A stretch of 33,514 nucleotides of DNA. Origin: Deltaproteobacteria bacterium GWA2_45_12 (GTDB lineage Bacteria > UBA10199). Shown here one piece after another: positions 631 through 25,947 of the stretch. A program made the translations under genes and the position numbers. Location of the stretch: positions 30,887 through 64,400 of the forward strand of contig MGPH01000013.1 in assembly GCA_001797365.1 (NCBI GenBank), in the 5' to 3' direction. Below the pieces are notes generated by a model that saw only the letters and a list, made by a program, of their open reading frames with translations, had not been told where the DNA came from and ran no database searches. The stretch's first letter is position 1, and every line of letters starts with the position of its first letter.

Positions 631-2868
631 TTAAAAAGCATCTTTTTTCAGTGTGACAAACACCGGAATAAAATCTCCCATTTGAACTGATTTTTTCACA
701 ATGGCCGGCCCAAAACCCTCTTTGTCAATTTCAATGCGATAGGTTCCAAATTCAACATCCGAAAGAATCACCGGTGTTTTTTGATCGACCTCTTGATGAT
801 TGACAACCACCCTGGCCCCACTGGGTTCGGATGAAATATAAATCACCGCTCCTGTTTTAATAATGCGCTGGAAGACCCGTTTGGCTTCACCAGCCAGCGG
901 GGTATGTGCCTTTGAATTGAGCATCACTTCGATAATGCGTGAAAGGGCGGCATTTTTATTTCCCTCGTCTATCTGTAGCTTTGCCAATCCAAGCTGCGAT
1001 TCATAATAAAAGTCTTTGCTCTTGATTGACTCTTCCCAATACGTTTTGGCTTTGGGTTTATCGGCCAACAAATAATAAACATGCCCCAGAAAATAATAAA
1101 TTTCGGCCTTTTCCTTAAGAGTGACATCCCCTTTAAGGGCTTCCACAAGTTCATTAAGCGCATGTGTGGCGTCACTTGTTTCCAAAAATTCCTTGGCCCG
1201 ATGAATATGCCGACCAGCCAAAGACGTGTCTAAAACAAAAGTTTCTTCATAGGGGACATTCACACGCACATCATAGGTTTCTTGTTTGTCAAAAAAGCCT
1301 TCCAATACAAATTTCATCGAATGGTTTCCCAGGGGCAAATCACCTTCAAACGGAGTGACTCCCATTTTCTGGCCATCTACAAACAAGGTGGCTCCCGGGG
1401 GCTGGGTCTTTATTTGGGCTGGGAAAAACTGGAGTGCCTTGTCATCCACTGAAATCTCAAGCGAACGGTTTTCGGCGTTCAAATCATATTCACGATGATA
1501 GCGCACTTCATAAACGGGCTTGGATGATGCCCCAAGGCGTACCGGCAATTTAAGTTCAACCTGATAATGCCCAAAGGGGATATAAAGGGGTTTTCCATAA
1601 ACAATGTCATCAAGTCTTACAGGGTTTGCATGGGCCTTGTCATAGGCATAATAACCTTCCAGATAAAACTGCACATCACGGGGAAGTTTTAAAATACGCA
1701 GCATACCGATTTCGGCATCAAAATTGATCGAAAAAACCTCCCTGCGCGCATCGGCCTTAAAAACGGTTTTTTGCTGATATTTGTCGCGAATGTCTTTTAA
1801 GTCGTATTCCGCCACCACTTCATATTCACGCCCTTGTTCAACATCCACGGGCACTTTAAGTGGCGCATAACCCAAGGCGCGCCCATCCATACGGATAAAG
1901 GCCGGCATGGGTTTTGTCTGAATATCCAAAAAAGCATGAAAGATTTCGGAAGTGGGAGTGGGTATCGATGTTTTCGGCTGGATGGTTTCCACAGGAACAG
2001 GAGTTCCAGGTTTTTCCTCTACAGTAGGAACAGGCTCCTGTTTTTCTTCCTGGTCTTGGTCAAGAAGGGCTTCATCAATAACTTCATCTATGGATTCTTC
2101 GCTATCTTCGATTGTGACTTCTTGAGATTTTTGTAAAGAATGACTTTTGTTGAAATAATAAAAAACAAGCCCGGCCACTCCGCTTAACAAGCACACTGCA
2201 ATGAAAATAAAACCCAGTCGTTTGCCAACCCTTCCCTCTTCTGCAGCAATTTCGCCCACAGGGACGGGCAATTGTTTATTTTCAGCATCTGTTTCAGGCC
2301 CTTCTTTTACAGGTTCGTCAAAAACCCCCTTCGATTCTTCGGCCGGCTCTGTCTCTTTGGGATTCTCCTGTTTTTCTATTTCAGGGCTTTGGGGGGAAGA
2401 AGCCGCCACAAAAGTTTCAACCGAGCTTTTTTTATTTTTTTGTGAAACCAAATCCTGGGGCGTTATGGCCTTCAAGGCCAGGCGAAGACTGTAAATACCC
2501 AACCCGATTTCATCACAATGGGCCAGCTTGTGATCGGTGTCTTTTTTTATTTTTTTACCATTAAGTAAAGTGCCGTTACGGCTACCCAAATCTTGGATGG
2601 TGATACCTGCTTCATCCACAACAATTTTCGCATGCATGCGTGAAAGCGAGGTGTCATCCAGATGAATTTGTACCCTCCCCTTGGCCCGACCCAGAACCTG
2701 CTCCCCTTTTTTCAGGGCCAGAACCATACCCTCCTGAGGGCCGGCAACAACTTCCAGGCGCGGGTAGGCTACGTCACTTGGTTTTTGAAATAAGTTCAAT
2801 TTTTCTGGCGAAATCAGTTCCTCTTCTCCCACAGGAACATCGCCGGTTTTTTCTGGATTATCGGGCAT
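631..2868 (-). CDS. FHA - transmembrane - PEGA/TPR membrane protein (745 aa)
   Basis: Domains in order: a cytoplasmic FHA domain (about residues 36-132, with the phosphothreonine-binding signatures VLGRAKG, SLSRMHA and DLGSRNGTLLNGKKI); an acidic Glu/Pro linker; one transmembrane helix (about 218-238); an Asp/Glu-rich stretch; a PEGA-like segment (about 315-345); a clear PEGA domain (about 485-525, QPPGATLFVDGQKMGVTPF); TPR-like helices (about 550-650); and a final PEGA domain (about 672-715, SSEPSGARVVVNHQEV). FHA domains bind phosphothreonine peptides, and PEGA domains are extracytoplasmic beta modules. The protein therefore probably links a Ser/Thr-kinase signal inside to the envelope outside (inference). 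No kinase gene is in the window. The double-FHA gene at 5410 and the secreted TPR genes nearby suggest one functional cluster. The start ATG at 2868 has no evident Shine-Dalgarno site. Confidence 0.88.
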   Translation of the reverse strand: MPDNPEKTGDVPVGEEELISPEKLNLFQKPSDVAYPRLEVVAGPQEGMVLALKKGEQVLGRAKGRVQIHLDDTSLSRMHAKIVVDEAGITIQDLGSRNGTLLNGKKIKKDTDHKLAHCDEIGLGIYSLRLALKAITPQDLVSQKNKKSSVETFVAASSPQSPEIEKQENPKETEPAEESKGVFDEPVKEGPETDAENKQLPVPVGEIAAEEGRVGKRLGFIFIAVCLLSGVAGLVFYYFNKSHSLQKSQEVTIEDSEESIDEVIDEALLDQDQEEKQEPVPTVEEKPGTPVPVETIQPKTSIPTPTSEIFHAFLDIQTKPMPAFIRMDGRALGYAPLKVPVDVEQGREYEVVAEYDLKDIRDKYQQKTVFKADARREVFSINFDAEIGMLRILKLPRDVQFYLEGYYAYDKAHANPVRLDDIVYGKPLYIPFGHYQVELKLPVRLGASSKPVYEVRYHREYDLNAENRSLEISVDDKALQFFPAQIKTQPPGATLFVDGQKMGVTPFEGDLPLGNHSMKFVLEGFFDKQETYDVRVNVPYEETFVLDTSLAGRHIHRAKEFLETSDATHALNELVEALKGDVTLKEKAEIYYFLGHVYYLLADKPKAKTYWEESIKSKDFYYESQLGLAKLQIDEGNKNAALSRIIEVMLNSKAHTPLAGEAKRVFQRIIKTGAVIYISSEPSGARVVVNHQEVDQKTPVILSDVEFGTYRIEIDKEGFGPAIVKKSVQMGDFIPVFVTLKKDAF

Positions 2869-2877
2869 ACTTTAATG

Positions 2878-2936
2878 GCTCGTCGCTCGAGGACTCGTGA
2901 ACCCGTATAACGAGCGACGAGCTTACGAGTCCTCGA
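2878..2936. repeat. Interlaced inverted repeats (A-B-A'-B'), intergenic
   Basis: Two 12-bp words, GCTCGTCGCTCG (2878-2889) and TCGAGGACTCGT (2887-2898), overlap by 3 bp. Their reverse complements follow in the same order: CGAGCGACGAGC (2911-2922) and ACGAGTCCTCGA (2925-2936). All matches are perfect. The order A-B-A'-B' means the two stems cannot nest: as RNA it could form a pseudoknot or two alternative hairpins. It lies between the divergent genes at 2868 and 3006. Confidence 0.8.
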
Positions 2937-2991
2937 TCTTGGCCCCCCACAAACAACTAGATTAAATAGTAGTATTTATTTCTGCAACATT

Positions 2992-2997
2992 TATAAT
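2992..2997 (+). promoter_or_regulatory. Candidate -10 box of the 3006 gene
   Basis: A perfect TATAAT lies only 8 nt before the ATG at 3006. Transcription would then start within about 2-4 nt of the start codon, giving an almost leaderless mRNA. No convincing -35 box is seen 16-18 bp upstream, so this is a weak call. Confidence 0.35.
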
Positions 2998-3005
2998 TAG
3001 TTACG

Positions 3006-4112
3006 ATGAAATTGTTCCTTTTTTGCATGATTTGTATTTTTTTGCTTACAGGCCATGGGAAGATGGTTTTTGCTTCTTGTTTGACCCCACCCCCGTCTTT
3101 GGTCATGGACGAACAAATGATCGGGTGGCTTAAAACCCAAACCAAAAAATCGAAAACACGCATCGCTCTTTTCCCTTTTGAAGACCGAAGCCAAATAGAA
3201 CCCGACCTGGCTCTTGGTTCGGGCTTTGCCATTGTTCTTTACGATTTTCTTAAAAAGACCAATGAGACAGGGATCTATCATCCTTTTGTCATGTTACACT
3301 CCACCCGCTCGAATAATCTTACAAATGCCGACTTGTTTGATGATGAAAAAATCCTGCAAGCGGCCAGCTCTATCGAAGCCAGCCATGCCGTTTTGGGCCT
3401 CTTCCAACGCCAGCCCGACGGGACACTGCGCTATTTTATTAAAATAATGGAGGTCGCCTCAAAAAAACAATTAGGCACAACCATTGAAGAATTCACCGAT
3501 CAGGGAGACCGATTTTTTGCAAGCATCGGCGAGGCCAGCTCTCAAATTCTTAAAACAATTTCTGGCAGCAAAATCAGTACCGATTTTTTAAGAAATAGTG
3601 TGGCCAAAAGCCCAAGTTATGAAGCTTATCGTTATTATTTAAAAGGTATGCTTGAAAGCAGTTCTTACAATGCGACACGTCTGGAAGTGGCCAAGGCCTG
3701 GTTTGAAAAAGCCACGAGCCTTTCTTATGGCTTTAAAAGTGCCTTCCATGAAAAAGCACGAACCCTTTTTATGCTGGCCATTATCCAAAAAATAATGGGA
3801 CAAGATTCATCGGCCAGTATTGGAGAAGCGGCTTTTTTGTTGAAGGAATATCCCCTTGAATCAGAAAAAAAGACAAAAAACGGGGAGGTTTTATCATCCT
3901 CTATTGGCACAGAGCGCTGGCTTAAATCCCATTTGGCCTTTGTTTCAGGAATGAACCTTGTAAAGGCAAACCAGCAAGGTCAGGCCCAAAAAGAACTGGG
4001 AATCGCAATATCCCTTGTTCCTGAAGATGGGTTGGCCCAGCTGGCCCTCTCACGCCTTGGGAAAACAGGTGATGCAAACCTCGTTTCACAACTGAACCCT
4101 TGTAATTTATAA
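3006..4112 (+). CDS. Exported protein, TolB/CsgG-like N-terminus with TPR-like C-terminus (368 aa)
   Basis: It begins with a hydrophobic export signal (MKLFLFCMICIFLLTGHGKMVFAS). A stretch at about residues 52-82 (RIALFPFEDRS ... LGSGFAIVLYDFL) has the pattern of TolB/CsgG/FlgO-type N-terminal alpha/beta domains, where 'ALFPFEDRS' is a beta strand followed by a loop. The second half (about 200-360) is alpha-helical, with TPR-like repeats including 'YRYYLKGMLESSSYNATRLEVAKAWFEKA' broken over two helices. The gene is followed after only 3 bp by the TPR gene at 4116, so the two form an operon. The role is probably periplasmic scaffolding within the FHA/PEGA cluster. Exact function is unknown. 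Confidence 0.75.
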   Translation: MKLFLFCMICIFLLTGHGKMVFASCLTPPPSLVMDEQMIGWLKTQTKKSKTRIALFPFEDRSQIEPDLALGSGFAIVLYDFLKKTNETGIYHPFVMLHSTRSNNLTNADLFDDEKILQAASSIEASHAVLGLFQRQPDGTLRYFIKIMEVASKKQLGTTIEEFTDQGDRFFASIGEASSQILKTISGSKISTDFLRNSVAKSPSYEAYRYYLKGMLESSSYNATRLEVAKAWFEKATSLSYGFKSAFHEKARTLFMLAIIQKIMGQDSSASIGEAAFLLKEYPLESEKKTKNGEVLSSSIGTERWLKSHLAFVSGMNLVKANQQGQAQKELGIAISLVPEDGLAQLALSRLGKTGDANLVSQLNPCNL

Positions 4113-4115
4113 ATT

Positions 4116-5369
4116 ATGAAAAAAACTTTTTTTCCAAAATTAATCCTGGTTCTTCTGACTGTTCTTGCAATGGTCCCCTCTTCGGCCGAGGCCAAAAAGA
4201 AAAAATTCGATAAACCCTCCAGCCGTGCGGTCTACCACAACAATCAGGGGGTTACTGCCATGTATGAAGGTAATTTCGATCGTGCCGTCTTTGAATTAAA
4301 AACAGCCGTCGAGCTTGAGCCAAAATATTTGGAAGGCTGGAACAACCTGGGCTTGGCCTACAAATACAAGGGGCGTTACGAGGATGCAATCAATGCCCTC
4401 CAAAAAGCCATTGAAATGGATAAAAAATATGCCTCACCTTACAATCATTTGGGGGCCATCTATTACGACCAAAAACGGTATGATGAAGCGCTCAAACAAT
4501 TTGAGATGGCCATCAAATACAATAAAAAGTTTGCCGATGCTTATTATAACCGTGCGCTCACTTATGTGGCCATGTCTTACACTAAAAATACAGAAGCCCT
4601 TAATTCTGCCACCAGCGACTTGAAACAGGCCACCGACCTCAACCCCGATCATCCTTACGCCCATAACGAACTGGCAAAAATTTATCAGCGTAAAGGTGAA
4701 TTCGAATTGGCCATTATCCGCTACAAGCTGGCGCTGGAAATCAATCCAAACTTGACTGAAAGCTGGAACAACTTGGCGACTCTCTATAACCAGACAGGAC
4801 AACCCTTAAAGGCCCAGGAAGCCCTCAATCATGCCCTAAGAAAAGAACCGAATTCTGCCCACACACACATGAATCTGGGAATTTCCTATCTTAAGGAAAA
4901 AAATTATCCGCTGGCTCTTCGGGAGTTTGACACGGTCATTAGAAGCACACCCACCAATGAAATGGCCTATTTTAATGTAGGGTTTGTTCATTATCAAATG
5001 GGGTTGGATGCCAAAAATAATGGAATGGTTGATAAAGCCAAAACCGAACTGGAAGAAGCCATCAAAGCCTTTATTTCCGCCTTTAAGCTCAAACCAAATT
5101 TTGGTGATGCCGCCTACAATGCCGCCTATGCCTACCAAACCTTAAATGACATCCCCAATGCCATTGTCTGGTTTGAAAAAGCACTCCAGGCCCAGCCCGA
5201 TAATATACGCGCCAGTTATGGTCTTGGGAGTGTTTACGAAGCTCAAGGCGACATGCCCAAGGCAAAAAAATATTATTGCGATTTTTTGAAAGTCGGTAAA
5301 ACCACCGAACTGCAAGTGGATGTAAAACGTATTGAGCAGGTGGTTTCCCAGGCAGGGGGATGCAAGTAG
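4116..5369 (+). CDS. Exported multi-TPR protein (417 aa)
   Basis: A signal peptide (MKKTFFPKLILVLLTVLAMVPSSAEA) is followed by about ten tetratricopeptide repeats filling residues 38-415. Examples are the repeats starting YHNNQGVTAMYEGNFDRAV, GWNNLGLAYKYKGRYEDAI and SPYNHLGAIYYDQKRYDEAL, with the usual W/G/Y/A/P spacing. TPR solenoids bind peptides, so this is most likely a periplasmic scaffold or assembly factor working with the gene just upstream. The stop codon TAG is not native-looking: it falls inside the GTAGGGG start of a palindromic repeat (5366-5391), so the original C-terminus may have been trimmed or replaced when the repeat arrived. Confidence 0.85.
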   Translation: MKKTFFPKLILVLLTVLAMVPSSAEAKKKKFDKPSSRAVYHNNQGVTAMYEGNFDRAVFELKTAVELEPKYLEGWNNLGLAYKYKGRYEDAINALQKAIEMDKKYASPYNHLGAIYYDQKRYDEALKQFEMAIKYNKKFADAYYNRALTYVAMSYTKNTEALNSATSDLKQATDLNPDHPYAHNELAKIYQRKGEFELAIIRYKLALEINPNLTESWNNLATLYNQTGQPLKAQEALNHALRKEPNSAHTHMNLGISYLKEKNYPLALREFDTVIRSTPTNEMAYFNVGFVHYQMGLDAKNNGMVDKAKTELEEAIKAFISAFKLKPNFGDAAYNAAYAYQTLNDIPNAIVWFEKALQAQPDNIRASYGLGSVYEAQGDMPKAKKYYCDFLKVGKTTELQVDVKRIEQVVSQAGGCK

Positions 5370-5391
5370 GGGCCAACCTTGTGTTGGCCCG
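5366..5391. repeat. GTAGGG-type palindrome supplying a stop codon
   Basis: GTAGG followed by an 8-bp hairpin, GGGCCAAC (5370-5377) / GTTGGCCC (5383-5390), with loop CTTGT. The TAG at 5367-5369 is the stop of the TPR gene. It is a close relative of the element at 11211-11236, which has the same layout and loop but the stem GGACCATC/GATGGCCC. The A-T pair is flipped to T-A in the stem, a compensatory change. Confidence 0.8.
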
Positions 5392-5409
5392 ATATTAATC
5401 CAAAAATCA

Positions 5410-6471
5410 ATGCTCCAATTTAAAATCACAAACAGGAAAACAGGCGACGAAAAAAGTTTTAAGACACAAAAGGATTCCGTCATTGTGGGCCGTACAAAAG
5501 AATGCGATATCGTTCTTGATTCAAAATCGGTTTCGCGCAAGCACACCGAGATTCTCCGCATTGAGAATGATTTTTTTCTGGTTGATCTTGAAAGTGGCAA
5601 TGGCACTTTTCTAAACGGCAAATTGCTCAAACCTCTTGAAAAAACACCTCTTCAAAACAAGGATTCCATTCGTATTGAGGAATTTGAAATCATTCCCGTT
5701 CTGCCCCGGACAGAAAAAGTATTTTCAGAAGAAAATACGGACTCCGGCATCATCGAAATCAAGATGATTAAAAAAGTTCTCAATGCCATTGACACGGGCC
5801 AAAACCCAAGCCTGGAAATAATCAAGGGGCCCCACGAAGGAAGAAAAGCTTTTTTGGATGATCCTATTGACGAACTGTTCATTGGTCGCGACCCTGCGTG
5901 TCATCTTTCGATCGAATCAGATGTCATCAGCCGCAGACACGCCGTCATTCGAAAAAAATGGGGAGGGGTCACCATTACCGATCTTCAAAGCAAAAACGGG
6001 ATGATCATTCACGACAAAAAAGTCAAAGAATACACCCTTAAGGACGGCGACATTATTACTTTGGGGAACATCCAGATTTTATACCGCAACCCCCAGGAAA
6101 TTGATGTGGAAGGCCTAAGTAAACAGGTTGAAGAAAAATTAAAAACAGCCGCCCAGGAAGAAACACCTTCTTTATCCCCTAACCCAGAATCTGGGCCCGA
6201 GCCAAAATCCATTTCCGAACCCGCTTCCGAACAAGCCAAAGCATCCCTTGCCAAAAACGAACCTGAAAGCAAATCTGAACCGGCTGCCGAGGCTTCCAAA
6301 ACAGATACGGTGGACCAGATTCTCCGGGAAGTTGAAACATCACAGCCGCTTCCTCCAAAAACAATAAAAAGAAAAAGTTTAAACCTTTCTGCTTTCGAGA
6401 TTTTTTTAATTGGCGTAGGAATTCTCACTTTAGTAGGTGCCATCCTTGCCATCTATGGTTTGTTGTTTTAG
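5410..6471 (+). CDS. Double-FHA, C-terminally anchored membrane protein (353 aa)
   Basis: Two FHA domains in tandem: residues about 5-95 (VIVGRTKECDIVLD, SVSRKHTEI, LESGNGTFLNGK) and about 135-228 (LFIGRDPACHLSIES, VISRRHAVI, LQSKNGMIIHDKKV). A Pro/Glu/Ser-rich linker (about 240-310) and a single hydrophobic C-terminal helix (LSAFEIFLIGVGILTLVGAI and on) follow. The FHA domains would face the cytoplasm with the tail in the inner membrane. The start is taken at ATG 5410, because the longer frame starting at TTG 5332 would run back through the palindrome and overlap the TPR gene. Its partner is probably the FHA-PEGA protein on the opposite strand, both reading phosphothreonine signals. No kinase or phosphatase is in the window. 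Confidence 0.87.
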   Translation: MLQFKITNRKTGDEKSFKTQKDSVIVGRTKECDIVLDSKSVSRKHTEILRIENDFFLVDLESGNGTFLNGKLLKPLEKTPLQNKDSIRIEEFEIIPVLPRTEKVFSEENTDSGIIEIKMIKKVLNAIDTGQNPSLEIIKGPHEGRKAFLDDPIDELFIGRDPACHLSIESDVISRRHAVIRKKWGGVTITDLQSKNGMIIHDKKVKEYTLKDGDIITLGNIQILYRNPQEIDVEGLSKQVEEKLKTAAQEETPSLSPNPESGPEPKSISEPASEQAKASLAKNEPESKSEPAAEASKTDTVDQILREVETSQPLPPKTIKRKSLNLSAFEIFLIGVGILTLVGAILAIYGLLF

Positions 6472-6489
6472 GATTTATTAAAATATCCT

Positions 6490-7335
6490 ATGCCCATTAA
6501 TATCCACAAGCGACATCATAAAATGGTTGGTGACAACAAACGGACCCCGCTCATTGTCAAAGCCATTCAACAAAAAATAAAAAAAGGGGACGTGATCTTT
6601 GAAATCGGCTGTGGAACAGGAATTTTGACCTTGGAAGCCCTTAAAGCAGGTGCAGGCCTTGTGTATGCCTGCGATATTGATCCGGAAGCTGTCCGGGCAG
6701 CCAAAGCCCTGATCAAAAAAGAAGGGTTTGAAAAAAAGGTCGTTTTTTTTACAGGTCTTTCCTCCGACATGGAGCTTCCCCGGAAAATAGATGGCATTAT
6801 CGCTGAAACCATCGGCAGCATAGGCTTAAATGAAAACATCCTCCCCTATGTATGCGACGCACGAAAAAAGTGGCTCAAAAAAAATGGCTTCATCATCCCC
6901 CAAAATCTGAAAATTTTTCTGGCCCCTGTTAGTTTCTCAAAAAAAATCCCATCGAACAAAAATAACGAATACGATTTCATGACCGGCTTGGTGGAACCCT
7001 CACAAATCTTAGCCAAGGAAAAACTCTATGGTGACATTTCTTTTTTAAAAAACGAGTACTATGGTTATGATGCGGAAATGGATTTTACAATCACACGCCC
7101 AGGAAATTTGGACGGTTTTTGTGGATGGATCGAAGTCGCATGGGACGCCAACAACATCACGCATACCTCTCCTTTTCATCCATTCACCCACTGGAAGCAA
7201 ACCCTTTTACCGCTGGCAAAAAGCGCCCCCGTAAAAGTGGGGCAAAAAGTGGCTTTTCGTTTGATTATTGGCCCCAAGGATGAAATTTTTTCAACCGAAA
7301 CTCTTGTGGAATGGGGATACAAAATTTGTATATGA
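6490..7335 (+). CDS. PRMT-type protein arginine methyltransferase-like enzyme (281 aa)
   Basis: A class I SAM-dependent methyltransferase fold with PRMT hallmarks: an N-terminal HHKMVGDNKRT segment resembling the PRMT 'M-D-R' helix; motif I VIFEIGCGTGIL (residues about 35-46); the acidic post-I residue in YACDID; a double-E loop AETIGSIGLNEN with Glu at about 106 and 115; and a THW loop, PFTHWKQTLLPL (Thr-His-Trp at about 233-235), in the C-terminal barrel part. The double-E plus THW combination is diagnostic of protein arginine methyltransferases, which are common in eukaryotes and rare in bacteria. It overlaps the next gene by 4 bp (ATGA), so the two are translationally coupled. The substrate is unknown; RG-rich Rho is a candidate (inference). 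It could alternatively methylate a small molecule. Confidence 0.85.
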   Translation: MPINIHKRHHKMVGDNKRTPLIVKAIQQKIKKGDVIFEIGCGTGILTLEALKAGAGLVYACDIDPEAVRAAKALIKKEGFEKKVVFFTGLSSDMELPRKIDGIIAETIGSIGLNENILPYVCDARKKWLKKNGFIIPQNLKIFLAPVSFSKKIPSNKNNEYDFMTGLVEPSQILAKEKLYGDISFLKNEYYGYDAEMDFTITRPGNLDGFCGWIEVAWDANNITHTSPFHPFTHWKQTLLPLAKSAPVKVGQKVAFRLIIGPKDEIFSTETLVEWGYKICI

Positions 7336-8093
7336 GATTTGTTTCTTCTCCCAAACAAATATCTTTGCTTCTTTTTTTGATTCTTTCCCTATCACAAACC
7401 GCTTCAGCCCATCATTGGCAAAATGTGGACAAGGGCCTTGGCTACACCGTCATCCAGCCGGCTTCGAACGACGAAGGAAAATTAAGTCTTCATGCATTCA
7501 AGATCGATCTGAAATATTTTGATCTTAAGCCCCTCTTTTCCTCATCGTTATCCACTCGATTACCCATCAAGCAGATGGTTTTACAAACCCGGGCCAAAGT
7601 GGGCGCCAATGCCAATTTTTTTGATGGTACTAACCAGCCTTTGGGTTTGATTATTGACAACAGGAAAATCGTCAACCCTTTCAAAAAAATTTCATGGTGG
7701 GGTATTTTTTTGATTGAAAACAAAATTCCTGCCATTGTTCATGCCCATGCCTTCAGACAAAATCCCGCTATCACAACAGCCATACAAGCAGGCCCCCGCC
7801 TGGTGATTAACGGGGCTATTCCCCGCCTTAAACCCGATTTAAGCAGGCACACGGCCTTTGGCATACAAAAAAACAATCATGTCATTTTGGTTGTAAGCCA
7901 GGAACCCATTGAGATTACCGAGCTGGCGCGCATCATGGCGAAACCCGAAAAAGAAGGAGGGCTTGGATGTGTGAACGCCCTTAATTTGGATGGCGGAAGC
8001 TCAAGTCAAATTTACTCCAAGATTGGTTCGTTTGAGTTGGATATCCCCAGTTATGTGGGAGTGCCGGTGGGGTTGGGGGTGTTTCGACGGTAG
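7332..8093 (+). CDS. Exported NAGPA-domain (phosphodiester glycosidase-like) protein (253 aa)
   Basis: Start chosen at ATG 7332, which overlaps the previous stop as ATGA and begins the signal peptide MRFVSSPKQISLLLFLIL...ASA. The mature part carries the NAGPA/DUF2233 pattern: VGANANFFDGTNQPLGLII, then TTAIQAGPRLVING, RHTAFGIQ, and the C-terminal NLDGGSSSQIY signature. The family includes the uncovering enzyme of mannose-6-phosphate tags. In bacteria it is linked to exopolysaccharide or phosphodiester-glycan turnover, so a periplasmic phosphodiester glycosidase is likely. The stop TAG at 8091-8093 belongs to a palindromic repeat that separates this gene from the convergent rho. Confidence 0.85.
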   Translation: MRFVSSPKQISLLLFLILSLSQTASAHHWQNVDKGLGYTVIQPASNDEGKLSLHAFKIDLKYFDLKPLFSSSLSTRLPIKQMVLQTRAKVGANANFFDGTNQPLGLIIDNRKIVNPFKKISWWGIFLIENKIPAIVHAHAFRQNPAITTAIQAGPRLVINGAIPRLKPDLSRHTAFGIQKNNHVILVVSQEPIEITELARIMAKPEKEGGLGCVNALNLDGGSSSQIYSKIGSFELDIPSYVGVPVGLGVFRR

Positions 8094-8145: not shown

Positions 8146-9675
8146 CTACTTATTCATGCTCTCCAGAAAATCACGATTGGTTTCCGTACCATTCATTTTA
8201 TCAAGCAAGAATTCCATCGTATCCACCACGTTAAGAGGATGAAGCAATTTACGCAACACCCACACACGGCTCAAAACGTCTTCCGGTTGCAACAATTCTT
8301 CCTTACGTGTACCTGATTTGTTCACATCCATGCATGGAAAAATACGTTTTTCCATGAGTTTGCGATCCAAATGAATTTCGGAATTACCCGTTCCTTTAAA
8401 TTCTTCAAAAATAACTTCATCCATGCGCGAACCAGTGTCGATAAGGGCCGTGGCAATAATGGTGAGCGAACCGCCTTCTTCAATATTGCGGGCCGCTCCA
8501 AAAAAACGCTTGGGCTTATGAAGGGCGTTTGAATCGACACCTCCTGAAAGAATTTTTCCTGAAGGAGGAACCACGGTATTGTAGGCACGAGCCAGACGCG
8601 TGATACTATCAAGCAAAATAACAACATCTCGTTTGTGCTCTACCAAGCGTTTGGCTTTTTCAATGACCATTTCAGCCACCTGCACGTGACGTGTGGCCGG
8701 TTCATCAAAGGTGGAGCTAATGACTTCTCCTTTTACAGAACGTTCCATGTCGGTCACTTCTTCAGGACGTTCATCAATAAGTAAAACAATCAAGACAATT
8801 TCAGGATGATTAATGGTGAGCGCATTGGCCAGGTTTTGGAGCATGACCGTTTTACCCGTACGTGGCGGGGCCACAATAAGGCAGCGCTGTCCTTTGCCAA
8901 TAGGGGCCAAAAGATCAATGATGCGCGTAGTGTAATTGTCTTTTTTACATTCAAGATTAAACCGTGCGTCCGGATAAAGAGGAGTCAAGTTATCAAAAAG
9001 AATCTTTTCACGCGCTATTTCAGGATCTTCAAAATTGACTTCTTCCACTTTAAGCAACGCAAAATAACGTTCAGAGTCTTTGGGGGGGCGTATTTGTCCC
9101 GCAATATTATCCCCGGTTCTTAAATTGAATTTGCGGATTTGTGAGGGCGAAACATAAATATCATCCGGCCCGGGCAAATAGCTAAAATCCCCCGACCGTA
9201 AAAAACCAAAACCATCGGGCAAAATTTCCAAGACACCATCCCCATAAATAACCCCTTGCTGGTCTGTTTGAGCCTTAAGAATGGCAAAAATAATTTCCTG
9301 TCTTTTAAGGCCTGCAGCTCCTTCAATATTTAATTTTCTGGTTAAGTTGATGAGCTCTCCAATTTTGACTTCCTTTAAATCACGCAGATAAAGAGTGCCG
9401 CCTTTTAAAAAGTCGGCAAAGGCCTCCTCAGCTTGTTTGGGAGTGACCGGTGTCGGGCTGGAAAGAATTTCATCATTGACTTCCCTACCCGAAGACGGGT
9501 TCAACCCGGCCTTGGGGCTTCCATTTCCTGCTTCATCGACCTGACGCACAGGAAAATCAGAAGGAACGCGGCTACGCCCTCCGGAACGCGGGCCACCACT
9601 GCGGCCTCTTTTAGGGGGTTCATATTCACGCACATTACTATTGGCTAGATTATTTGATTTTCCTTCAGGACTCAT
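8146..9675 (-). CDS. rho: Transcription termination factor Rho, with RG-rich N-terminal extension (509 aa)
   Basis: Hexameric RNA helicase that ends transcription. The Rho core begins near residue 97 ([19 protein letters not shown]). It continues with the cold-shock RNA-binding domain ([31 protein letters not shown] in two parts), Walker A APPRTGKT (about 269-276), Walker B with [16 protein letters not shown], and the R-loop [10 protein letters not shown]. It is ~90 residues longer than E. coli Rho. The extra N-terminal part is disordered and basic, with an RG/RS-rich patch ([16 protein letters not shown], residues 21-36) and a hairpin-encoded stretch (residues 51-65). Such extensions occur in several phyla. 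A good promoter lies 130 bp upstream, so rho can be expressed apart from the sucCD-ndk genes before it. Confidence 0.98.
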
Positions 9676-24470: not shown

Positions 24471-25039
24471 ATATGCCCCACTTTCCACTATTCATCAATC
24501 TTACACAAAAAAACATTTTAATTGTTGGTGCCACCACTTTGGCCAAGGACAAAATCAAACGCCTTTTACCCTTTGTAAAAAAAATCACTATTGTCGCCAC
24601 ACGCATTGATCCAGAAATACACGACATGGCCCAAAGCGCGCCCTTGACAATCCATCAGCGTGAGTGGGCCATGGAAGATTTAAAAGGAATGGATATGGTC
24701 ATTGTGGCGGCCAGTGAGGCCGATCTTCAAAAAGAGATTTTTTCGGCCTGCACCAAAAAACGCATCTTGTGCAATACAGTGGATGTCCCCAAGTATTGTC
24801 ATTTTTTCTTCCCCGCCCTTATTACCCGCGGCGATCTATCCATCGGCATTTCCACGGGCGGAAAAGCCCCCGCCGTTTCCAAAAAAGTAAAGGAATACAT
24901 TGATGGCATGCTTCCCAAAAACCTGGATGACGCCGTGTCCCAGTTGATTTCATTACGAACCTCGCTGGAACCCGGCATTGAACAAATGAAAAAAGTCGCT
25001 GAATGGACCGGCAAGGTTTTAAAAGAGATTTTGAAATAA
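24467..25039 (+). CDS. Precorrin-2 dehydrogenase / siroheme synthase N-terminal-type protein (190 aa)
   Basis: Resembles the Met8/CysG N-terminal domain, which oxidises precorrin-2 to sirohydrochlorin with NAD and may insert iron. Features: [32 protein letters not shown] (Rossmann strand and loop), [59 protein letters not shown] in sequence. The nucleotide loop reads [10 protein letters not shown] instead of the usual VGGGxVAxRK, so cofactor binding may be altered. The length (~190) fits the single-domain form. It overlaps bcp by ATGA and prmA by TAATG, so all three are coupled. No other tetrapyrrole gene is in the window. Confidence 0.88.
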
Positions 25040-25947
25040 TGGCCGAAAAAAATCCAGCCTACCATGTCATCACTTTTGAAATAAAAATAGACGTTTTGGA
25101 ACCCCTTCAGGGGATTCTCTACCAACAGGGGGCCTTGGGACTTGAAGAATTGCCTTCTGACAAAAAGGATTATGTCATTATTAAAGCCTACTTCGATGCC
25201 AAAGAACCTCTGAGTCAGTTTTTGGATTCTTTTCCTGTAAGGGCAATTCATGAATTGCCCTTACATGCCACCACCATCACCCTTCAATCCATCAAACAAA
25301 ATATTGTTCCCTTCGAACCCTTGGAACTTATTCCAGGCACATGGATTGTGCCTCCGAAGGATATGAATCAATCTCATTTAGAAATCCCCGATGTTCACTC
25401 TATCATCATCCGGCCCGGGATGGCTTTTGGGACGGGAAGGCATGAGACCACACAGTTAGTGGCGGAAATATTTGTAGGGGCGCTGCTTGCTGCGCCCTAT
25501 TTTGTTCAATCACGGGCGCAGCAAGCTGCGCCCCTACGAAAACAAATACAATCCGTACTCGATGTGGGGTGTGGTAGTGGCATTTTGGCTCTTTTTGCAG
25601 CGCAAAATGGAATTTCCAAAGTAGATGGTGTTGAAATTGATCCCCAAGCCCTTAATAACGCCCGTGAAAACATCGCCCTCAACAATCAAAACCATATTCA
25701 ACTTTATCAAAATTTGAAGGAAGTGCCCGATTGTTACGATTGTCTTTTGGCTAATATTTTGGCTTCAACCCTTATTTATTTAAAAGAAGAACTTCTTTCA
25801 AAGATAAACAAGGGTGGATTTCTTATTGCCTCAGGCATTACTGTTGAAGAAGCCCAAAGCTTTGAACCTTATTTCGCCCGGCTTACGTTAATAAAAAAAG
25901 TCCAAAAAAAGGAATGGTTGTGTTATTGCTTTCAAAACAATGATTAA
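25039..25947 (+). CDS. prmA: Ribosomal protein L11 methyltransferase with two palindromic inserts (302 aa)
   Basis: SAM-dependent methyltransferase for ribosomal protein L11 Lys/N-terminal amines. The family motifs are IIIRPGMAFGTGRHETTQL (residues about 122-140), motif I VLDVGCGSGILALFAA, VDGVEIDPQALNNARENI and the catalytic-region LLANILASTLI. Two stretches are foreign: residues about 67-76 ([10 protein letters not shown], in the N-terminal L11-binding domain) and 146-167 ([22 protein letters not shown], between the GTGRHETT motif and motif I). Both are encoded exactly by palindromic repeats (25236-25265 and 25474-25537) and keep the frame. The total of 302 is near the normal length, so the surrounding regions are probably slightly short. 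Start ATG 25039 overlaps the previous stop (TAATG). Confidence 0.95.
   Translation: MAEKNPAYHVITFEIKIDVLEPLQGILYQQGALGLEELPSDKKDYVIIKAYFDAKEPLSQFLDSFPVRAIHELPLHATTITLQSIKQNIVPFEPLELIPGTWIVPPKDMNQSHLEIPDVHSIIIRPGMAFGTGRHETTQLVAEIFVGALLAAPYFVQSRAQQAAPLRKQIQSVLDVGCGSGILALFAAQNGISKVDGVEIDPQALNNARENIALNNQNHIQLYQNLKEVPDCYDCLLANILASTLIYLKEELLSKINKGGFLIASGITVEEAQSFEPYFARLTLIKKVQKKEWLCYCFQNND
25236..25265. repeat. Perfect 30-bp palindrome inside prmA
   Basis: Identical to 23958-23987: TGTAAGGGCAATTCA followed by its exact reverse complement. Being 30 bp long with no stop in this frame, it adds exactly ten codons. Confidence 0.95.
25474..25537. repeat. GTAGGGGCG bipartite inverted repeat inside prmA
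   Basis: Left arm GTAGGGGCGCTGCTTGC TGCGCCC (25474-25497) and right arm GGGCGCAGCAAGCTGCG CCCCTAC (25514-25537) are inverse copies with one mismatch, separated by 16 bp. The sucC insert matches the left arm at 23 of 24 positions. Confidence 0.93.

Follow-up and report, generated by a model that had tools for sequence, protein, structure and literature searches.

PRMT1 carries a helix-turn-helix arm on which its dimerization, AdoMet binding, and activity all depend; mutation or deletion of the arm impairs all three, for a reason that is not settled (PMC8592882, PMC8619983). Bacterial enzymes that methylate guanidino groups of small molecules have also been described, among them SznE of streptozotocin (PMC11705231, PMC12637814) and BlsL of blasticidin, for which 35% identity to a PRMT has been described (PMC5572114). 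Our search of the open-access literature returned no direct report of bacterial protein arginine methyltransferases (PRMTs). Here we analyzed a 33,514-nucleotide stretch of DNA (the window; contig MGPH01000013.1) from the 2.46 Mb, 68-contig genome of Deltaproteobacteria bacterium GWA2_45_12 (GTDB name UBA10199; one of the uncultured "Deltaproteobacteria" MAG groups), in which a bacterial PRMT had been predicted at 6490-7335 from the sequence THWKQTLL and two Glu residues at about 106 and 115. These residues are indeed found at E106, E115, and T233-W235 of a 281-residue protein, with FTHWKQTLL at residues 232-240 (Table 1). The in-frame open stretch is just 287 codons, so the choice of start misses no N-terminal part of the PRMT. 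In our assessment, the gene probably encodes a vertically inherited bacterial enzyme of the PRMT fold that methylates arginine on a terminal guanidino nitrogen, with a cellular protein as the most likely substrate.

Table 1. Features of the PRMT locus, in coordinates of the window
Feature	Position	Strand	Basis or remark
Gene for an FHA-domain membrane protein, immediately 5' of PRMT	5416..6471	+	Adjacent to PRMT in three families of the order
Putative PRMT-fold arginine N-methyltransferase gene	6490..7335	+	ATG to TGA, 281 aa; profile, PDB search, model
N-terminal patch H9-x-x-M12-x-x-D15-x-x-R18-T19 (PRMT1 HEEMLKDEVRT)	6514..6546	+	Alignment with PRMT1, CARM1, PRMT6
Motif I FEIGCGTGIL, residues 37-46, AdoMet binding	6598..6627	+	Sequence and alignment
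Double-E loop ETIGSIGLNE, E106 and E115	6805..6834	+	Glu pair invariant in 23 class homologues
Reduced dimerization arm site, residues 148-164	6931..6981	+	DSSP and pLDDT of model; segment lengths
THW loop T233-H234-W235-K-Q237-T	7186..7203	+	T, H, W, Q invariant in complete class rows
NAGPA phosphodiester-glycosidase-family gene	7332..8093 (or from 7311)	+	Signal-peptide-like N-terminus; Pfam

The family assignment rests on profiles, PDB searches, and a predicted structure. The Pfam PRMT_C profile gives 37.5 bits, above its cut-off of 27, beside general AdoMet-methyltransferase matches. A phmmer search of the PDB returned PRMT6 at 2e-27, and among the 60 matches listed, all are named as PRMTs or arginine methyltransferases except 8rbk, which has an uninformative PDB name and is a PRMT by its PRMT9-like sequence. 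With a profile of 12 homologues, PRMT6 was matched end to end over positions 8-273 (6e-51), and the 60 sequences listed are PRMTs. An AlphaFold monomer prediction built from eight sequences (the window protein and seven loci; pLDDT 86.9, pTM 0.85) matches PRMT6 and PRMT1 over nearly the entire chain; the Foldseek and VIA-align matches listed were all PRMTs, including PRMT6 5fqo (VIA-align Z 30.9, rmsd 2.8 A, 279 of 281 residues). The seven-strand AdoMet Rossmann domain with motif I is present, as judged from the Pfam methyltransferase matches and the model, and the C-terminal PRMT beta-barrel lies in the same arrangement as in PRMTs, as seen from the PRMT_C score and the superposition on PRMT6. 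No small-molecule methyltransferase family lies closer in the PDB or Pfam, an affinity that the original prediction had named as counting against it. A PADLOC match to mad2 was rejected, as it covers only the Rossmann part and no neighbors of defence type were recognized. By sequence and predicted structure, the protein genuinely belongs to the PRMT superfamily in its broad sense, as a bacterial member from an armless lineage, and arginine methyltransferase function is likely.

The residues expected of a PRMT active site are in place. We checked the human PRMT1 sequence in the alignment residue by residue; in what we take to be the PRMT1 numbering, H45/M48/D51/R54/T55, E144, E153, and THW correspond to H9, M12, D15, R18, T19, E106, E115, and T233-W235, and the nine-position spacing of the two Glu residues is identical. 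In the alignment, H9, D15, R18, E106, and E115 are present in 23 of 23 class rows, T-H-W-Q is kept in all 22 complete ones, and motif I is also invariant across the class clade, although these homologues share just ~31-48% identity with the window protein. The surroundings of the double-E pair are altered: the W and M of SEWMG are replaced by T107 and I108, and I117 stands where PRMT1 has M155 behind the second Glu. In the mechanism that we propose, AdoMet would be bound in the Rossmann domain via motif I. E106 and E115 would hold the guanidinium between them, in a pocket shaped by H234 from the THW loop and by the residues H9, D15, and R18, and the methyl group would then move to a terminal guanidino nitrogen. 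We infer that arginine is the acceptor and that it most likely sits in a cellular protein. The PRMT fold might instead have been kept for another protein side chain or RNA, or in a protein that is no longer catalytic, and the changed neighbors of the double-E pair, the loss of the YFxxY helix and arm described below, and the match of the Rossmann part to PrmA would all fit such a protein. However, the invariance of the Glu pair, THW, R18, and motif I across the clade is hard to explain without guanidinium chemistry, and a separate PrmA is already encoded in the same window at 25003-25947, so we consider this explanation quite improbable.

The putative arginine methyltransferase differs from the eukaryotic PRMTs in two elements. 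The YFxxY motif, which is also important in characterized PRMT1, is absent: none of the eight residues before H9 fits it, and only six further in-frame codons lie upstream of the ATG. The second element is the arm. P137 and W213 are 76 residues apart here, as against 94-105 in PRMT1, CARM1, and PRMT6 and 94-113 in the eukaryotic rows; the equivalent spacing is 55-80 residues in 15 of the 22 complete class rows and 91-110 in nearly all bacterial rows outside the class. In the AlphaFold model, residues 148-163 of the arm site are a low-confidence disordered loop in which no helix is predicted (DSSP, pLDDT). A GFD-type arm of 91 residues is retained by three class members (G041, G022, and G032), so its loss probably took place inside the class. 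Because both the arm and the YFxxY helix are missing, we infer that the window PRMT probably works as a monomer or via a different dimer interface. By the features tested (no YFxxY, no arm, a position outside the eukaryotic type I clade), it is not a type I PRMT. The call of a bacterial PRMT is thus supported by profile, fold, and catalytic residues, and is refined to a divergent lineage without YFxxY or arm.

Homologues of the gene were found in 22 of the 46 genomes of the host class ("Deltaproteobacteria" MAGs; 23 rows, E up to 1e-20), where they span ~11 families. Of 339 bacterial genomes sampled outside the class, ~19 (~6%) encode PRMT-like proteins, and both Glu residues and THW are kept in ~4 (~1% of the sample; G053, G083, G215, and G073); in many other bacterial PRMT-like proteins, at least one catalytic residue has been lost. 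The PRMT_C profile had no match in 14 control genomes. The idea that PRMTs are scarce in bacteria thus holds for versions with all of these residues, which are rare outside the class, and not for PRMT-like proteins at large, which are sparse but not very rare. A viral origin of the gene was also considered and rejected, as the viral contig collection contained no relative.

The phylogeny with eukaryotic and bacterial PRMTs that had been suggested as a check was run as a maximum-likelihood tree of 47 rows, which is unrooted, has long branches, and includes four eukaryotic sequences. All class rows fall in a single clade (support 98/92) whose nearest neighbor is the bacterial G215 (83/80), and PRMT1, CARM1, and PRMT6 group among themselves (100/99), without the window protein. 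Since the homologues form one supported clade apart from the eukaryotic type I PRMTs, the gene looks, from its sequence, vertically inherited in the class with no recent import. Recent transfer from a eukaryote could be argued from the best phmmer matches in the PDB, which are animal PRMTs, although eukaryotes are the source of the PRMTs in the PDB listing; identity to eukaryotic PRMTs is 23-27%, compared with ~31-48% within the class, and together with the separation of the two clades this makes such a transfer extremely unlikely. PRMT9 groups with a bacterial protein of G053 (97/90), encoded at 1150-2253 (-) of locus L162, in which N-terminal TPR-like repeats precede a PRMT module with PRMT9 and PRMT7 as best PDB matches. 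This protein may bear on the origin of PRMT7/9, as a candidate only, with contamination possible.

We then consider the neighborhood. The rho gene adjoins the PRMT-glycosidase pair, and beyond it lie genes resembling ndk, sucD, and sucC (named from sequence), neighbors that mark the contig as bacterial. The original prediction had stressed coupling to a secreted glycosidase-like gene. The overlap is real, with an ATGA stop/start junction if the NAGPA gene starts at 7332, and it recurs in one relative only (G004); a NAGPA gene is adjacent in this genome (G000) and G004 and absent beside the PRMT gene in G002, so the glycosidase was rejected as a partner, and the coupling says little about the target. 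Three genomes of the order, each from a different family, carry the PRMT gene, and in all of them it is immediately preceded by genes for a secreted protein, a TPR protein, and an FHA membrane protein. As an obligate partner this FHA module was rejected too, for it occurs without an adjacent PRMT in G001, G005, and partly G003. The window at 631-6471 holds a divergent FHA-PEGA gene and the secreted-TPR-FHA gene set, which is conserved across much of the order; the 368-aa secreted protein encoded there (3006-4112) matches no Pfam family. In the PRMT-negative G001, surE- and pcm-like genes follow the FHA gene (L223, 5536-6948, +; by eye), and the pcm-like gene would encode another protein methyltransferase. 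Elsewhere in the class, the neighbors vary by lineage (tolB/ppx-like, priA-def-fmt-like, efp confirmed by Pfam, TPR/ATPase genes), and in ~20 relatives they are mostly housekeeping genes, several named by eye from sequence. We take this lack of a constant partner to be common for a housekeeping modification enzyme.

The same neighborhoods bear on whether a small molecule is the acceptor, such as free arginine, agmatine, or a peptide natural product, methylated on its guanidino group in the manner of SznE or BlsL. The existence of those bacterial enzymes speaks for this, a small substrate might gain access to the pocket once the arm is gone, and a PRMT-like domain is found inside an apparent nonribosomal peptide synthetase of G119 (L169, 267-2531, +), where the THW loop is degraded. 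However, no biosynthetic cluster was seen around the PRMT gene in the ~20 class neighborhoods, the gene is spread over its many families in an apparently vertical pattern, and the full beta-barrel of protein-acting PRMTs is retained. We regard a small-molecule acceptor as unlikely.

Three protein substrates were considered for the putative PRMT, and all failed simple phyletic tests. The Rho encoded at 8146-9675 (-) has an RG-rich N-terminal extension, and such extensions vary in length in the order and are absent from much of the class. Rho was rejected as the substrate, since most PRMT-positive genomes have a tailless Rho and similar tails are present in relatives from the order that lack the PRMT. 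In G009 and G016, efp lies beside the PRMT gene, and the EF-P loop carries an Arg (PGNxRA), but the same Arg-bearing loop is found in PRMT-negative genomes and EF-P was rejected likewise. In most class genomes checked (L132-L161), the EF-P tip loop reads PGN[LKW]R as opposed to the PGKGQ type, with Asn at the usually modified Lys position. RGG-rich proteins were rejected by a crude test, in which RGGRGG codon patterns showed no excess over a reversed control in PRMT-positive genomes and no link to PRMT status. Against the PRMT reading we counted this lack of an RGG/GAR excess, the absent YFxxY and arm, the replaced double-E neighbors, and the origin of the monomer model in eight sequences.

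We hold only tentatively, as a possibility somewhat short of an even chance, the broader proposal that a class-wide PRMT lineage has lost the arm, is naturally monomeric or otherwise assembled, and methylates arginine of cellular proteins. If this is true, these uncultured bacteria would routinely modify their proteins by arginine methylation, and the need of PRMT1 for its arm would not be intrinsic to the PRMT fold. A natural armless clade with every catalytic residue offers a direct test of that requirement, and the gene is a concrete starting point to look for arginine methylation in bacteria.

Compared by description with SznE/StzE and BlsL, the window PRMT would share the chemistry of AdoMet-dependent guanidino N-methylation, whereas those enzymes sit in antibiotic biosynthetic clusters and it has no visible cluster. 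With PrmA, the ribosomal protein L11 methyltransferase, it has the Rossmann AdoMet domain in common (55.6 bits over residues 14-109, matching profile positions 143-236 and no others); it lacks the L11-binding N-terminal domain, has the PRMT beta-barrel, and falls far below the TIGR00406 equivalog cut-off (47.9 versus 183 bits). The eukaryotic type I PRMTs (PRMT6, PRMT1, PRMT2, PRMT3, PRMT8, and CARM1) share the two-domain fold (Z ~30), motif I, the THW loop, the double-E pair with identical spacing, and the H/M/D/R/T patch. The window protein, at 23-27% identity, differs from them in its shorter N-terminus without YFxxY, in the loop that replaces the arm, and in the changes of SEWMGY to AETIGS and of the Met after the second Glu to Ile. 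Finally, the bacterial PRMT-like proteins of G215, G083, G053, and G073 are homologous (~34% identity for G215 and G083) and, in the case of G215, G083, G053, and one G073 protein, likewise keep the double-E pair and THW, but their arm segments are full-length, with 91-100 residues between the equivalents of P137 and W213 compared to 76 here.
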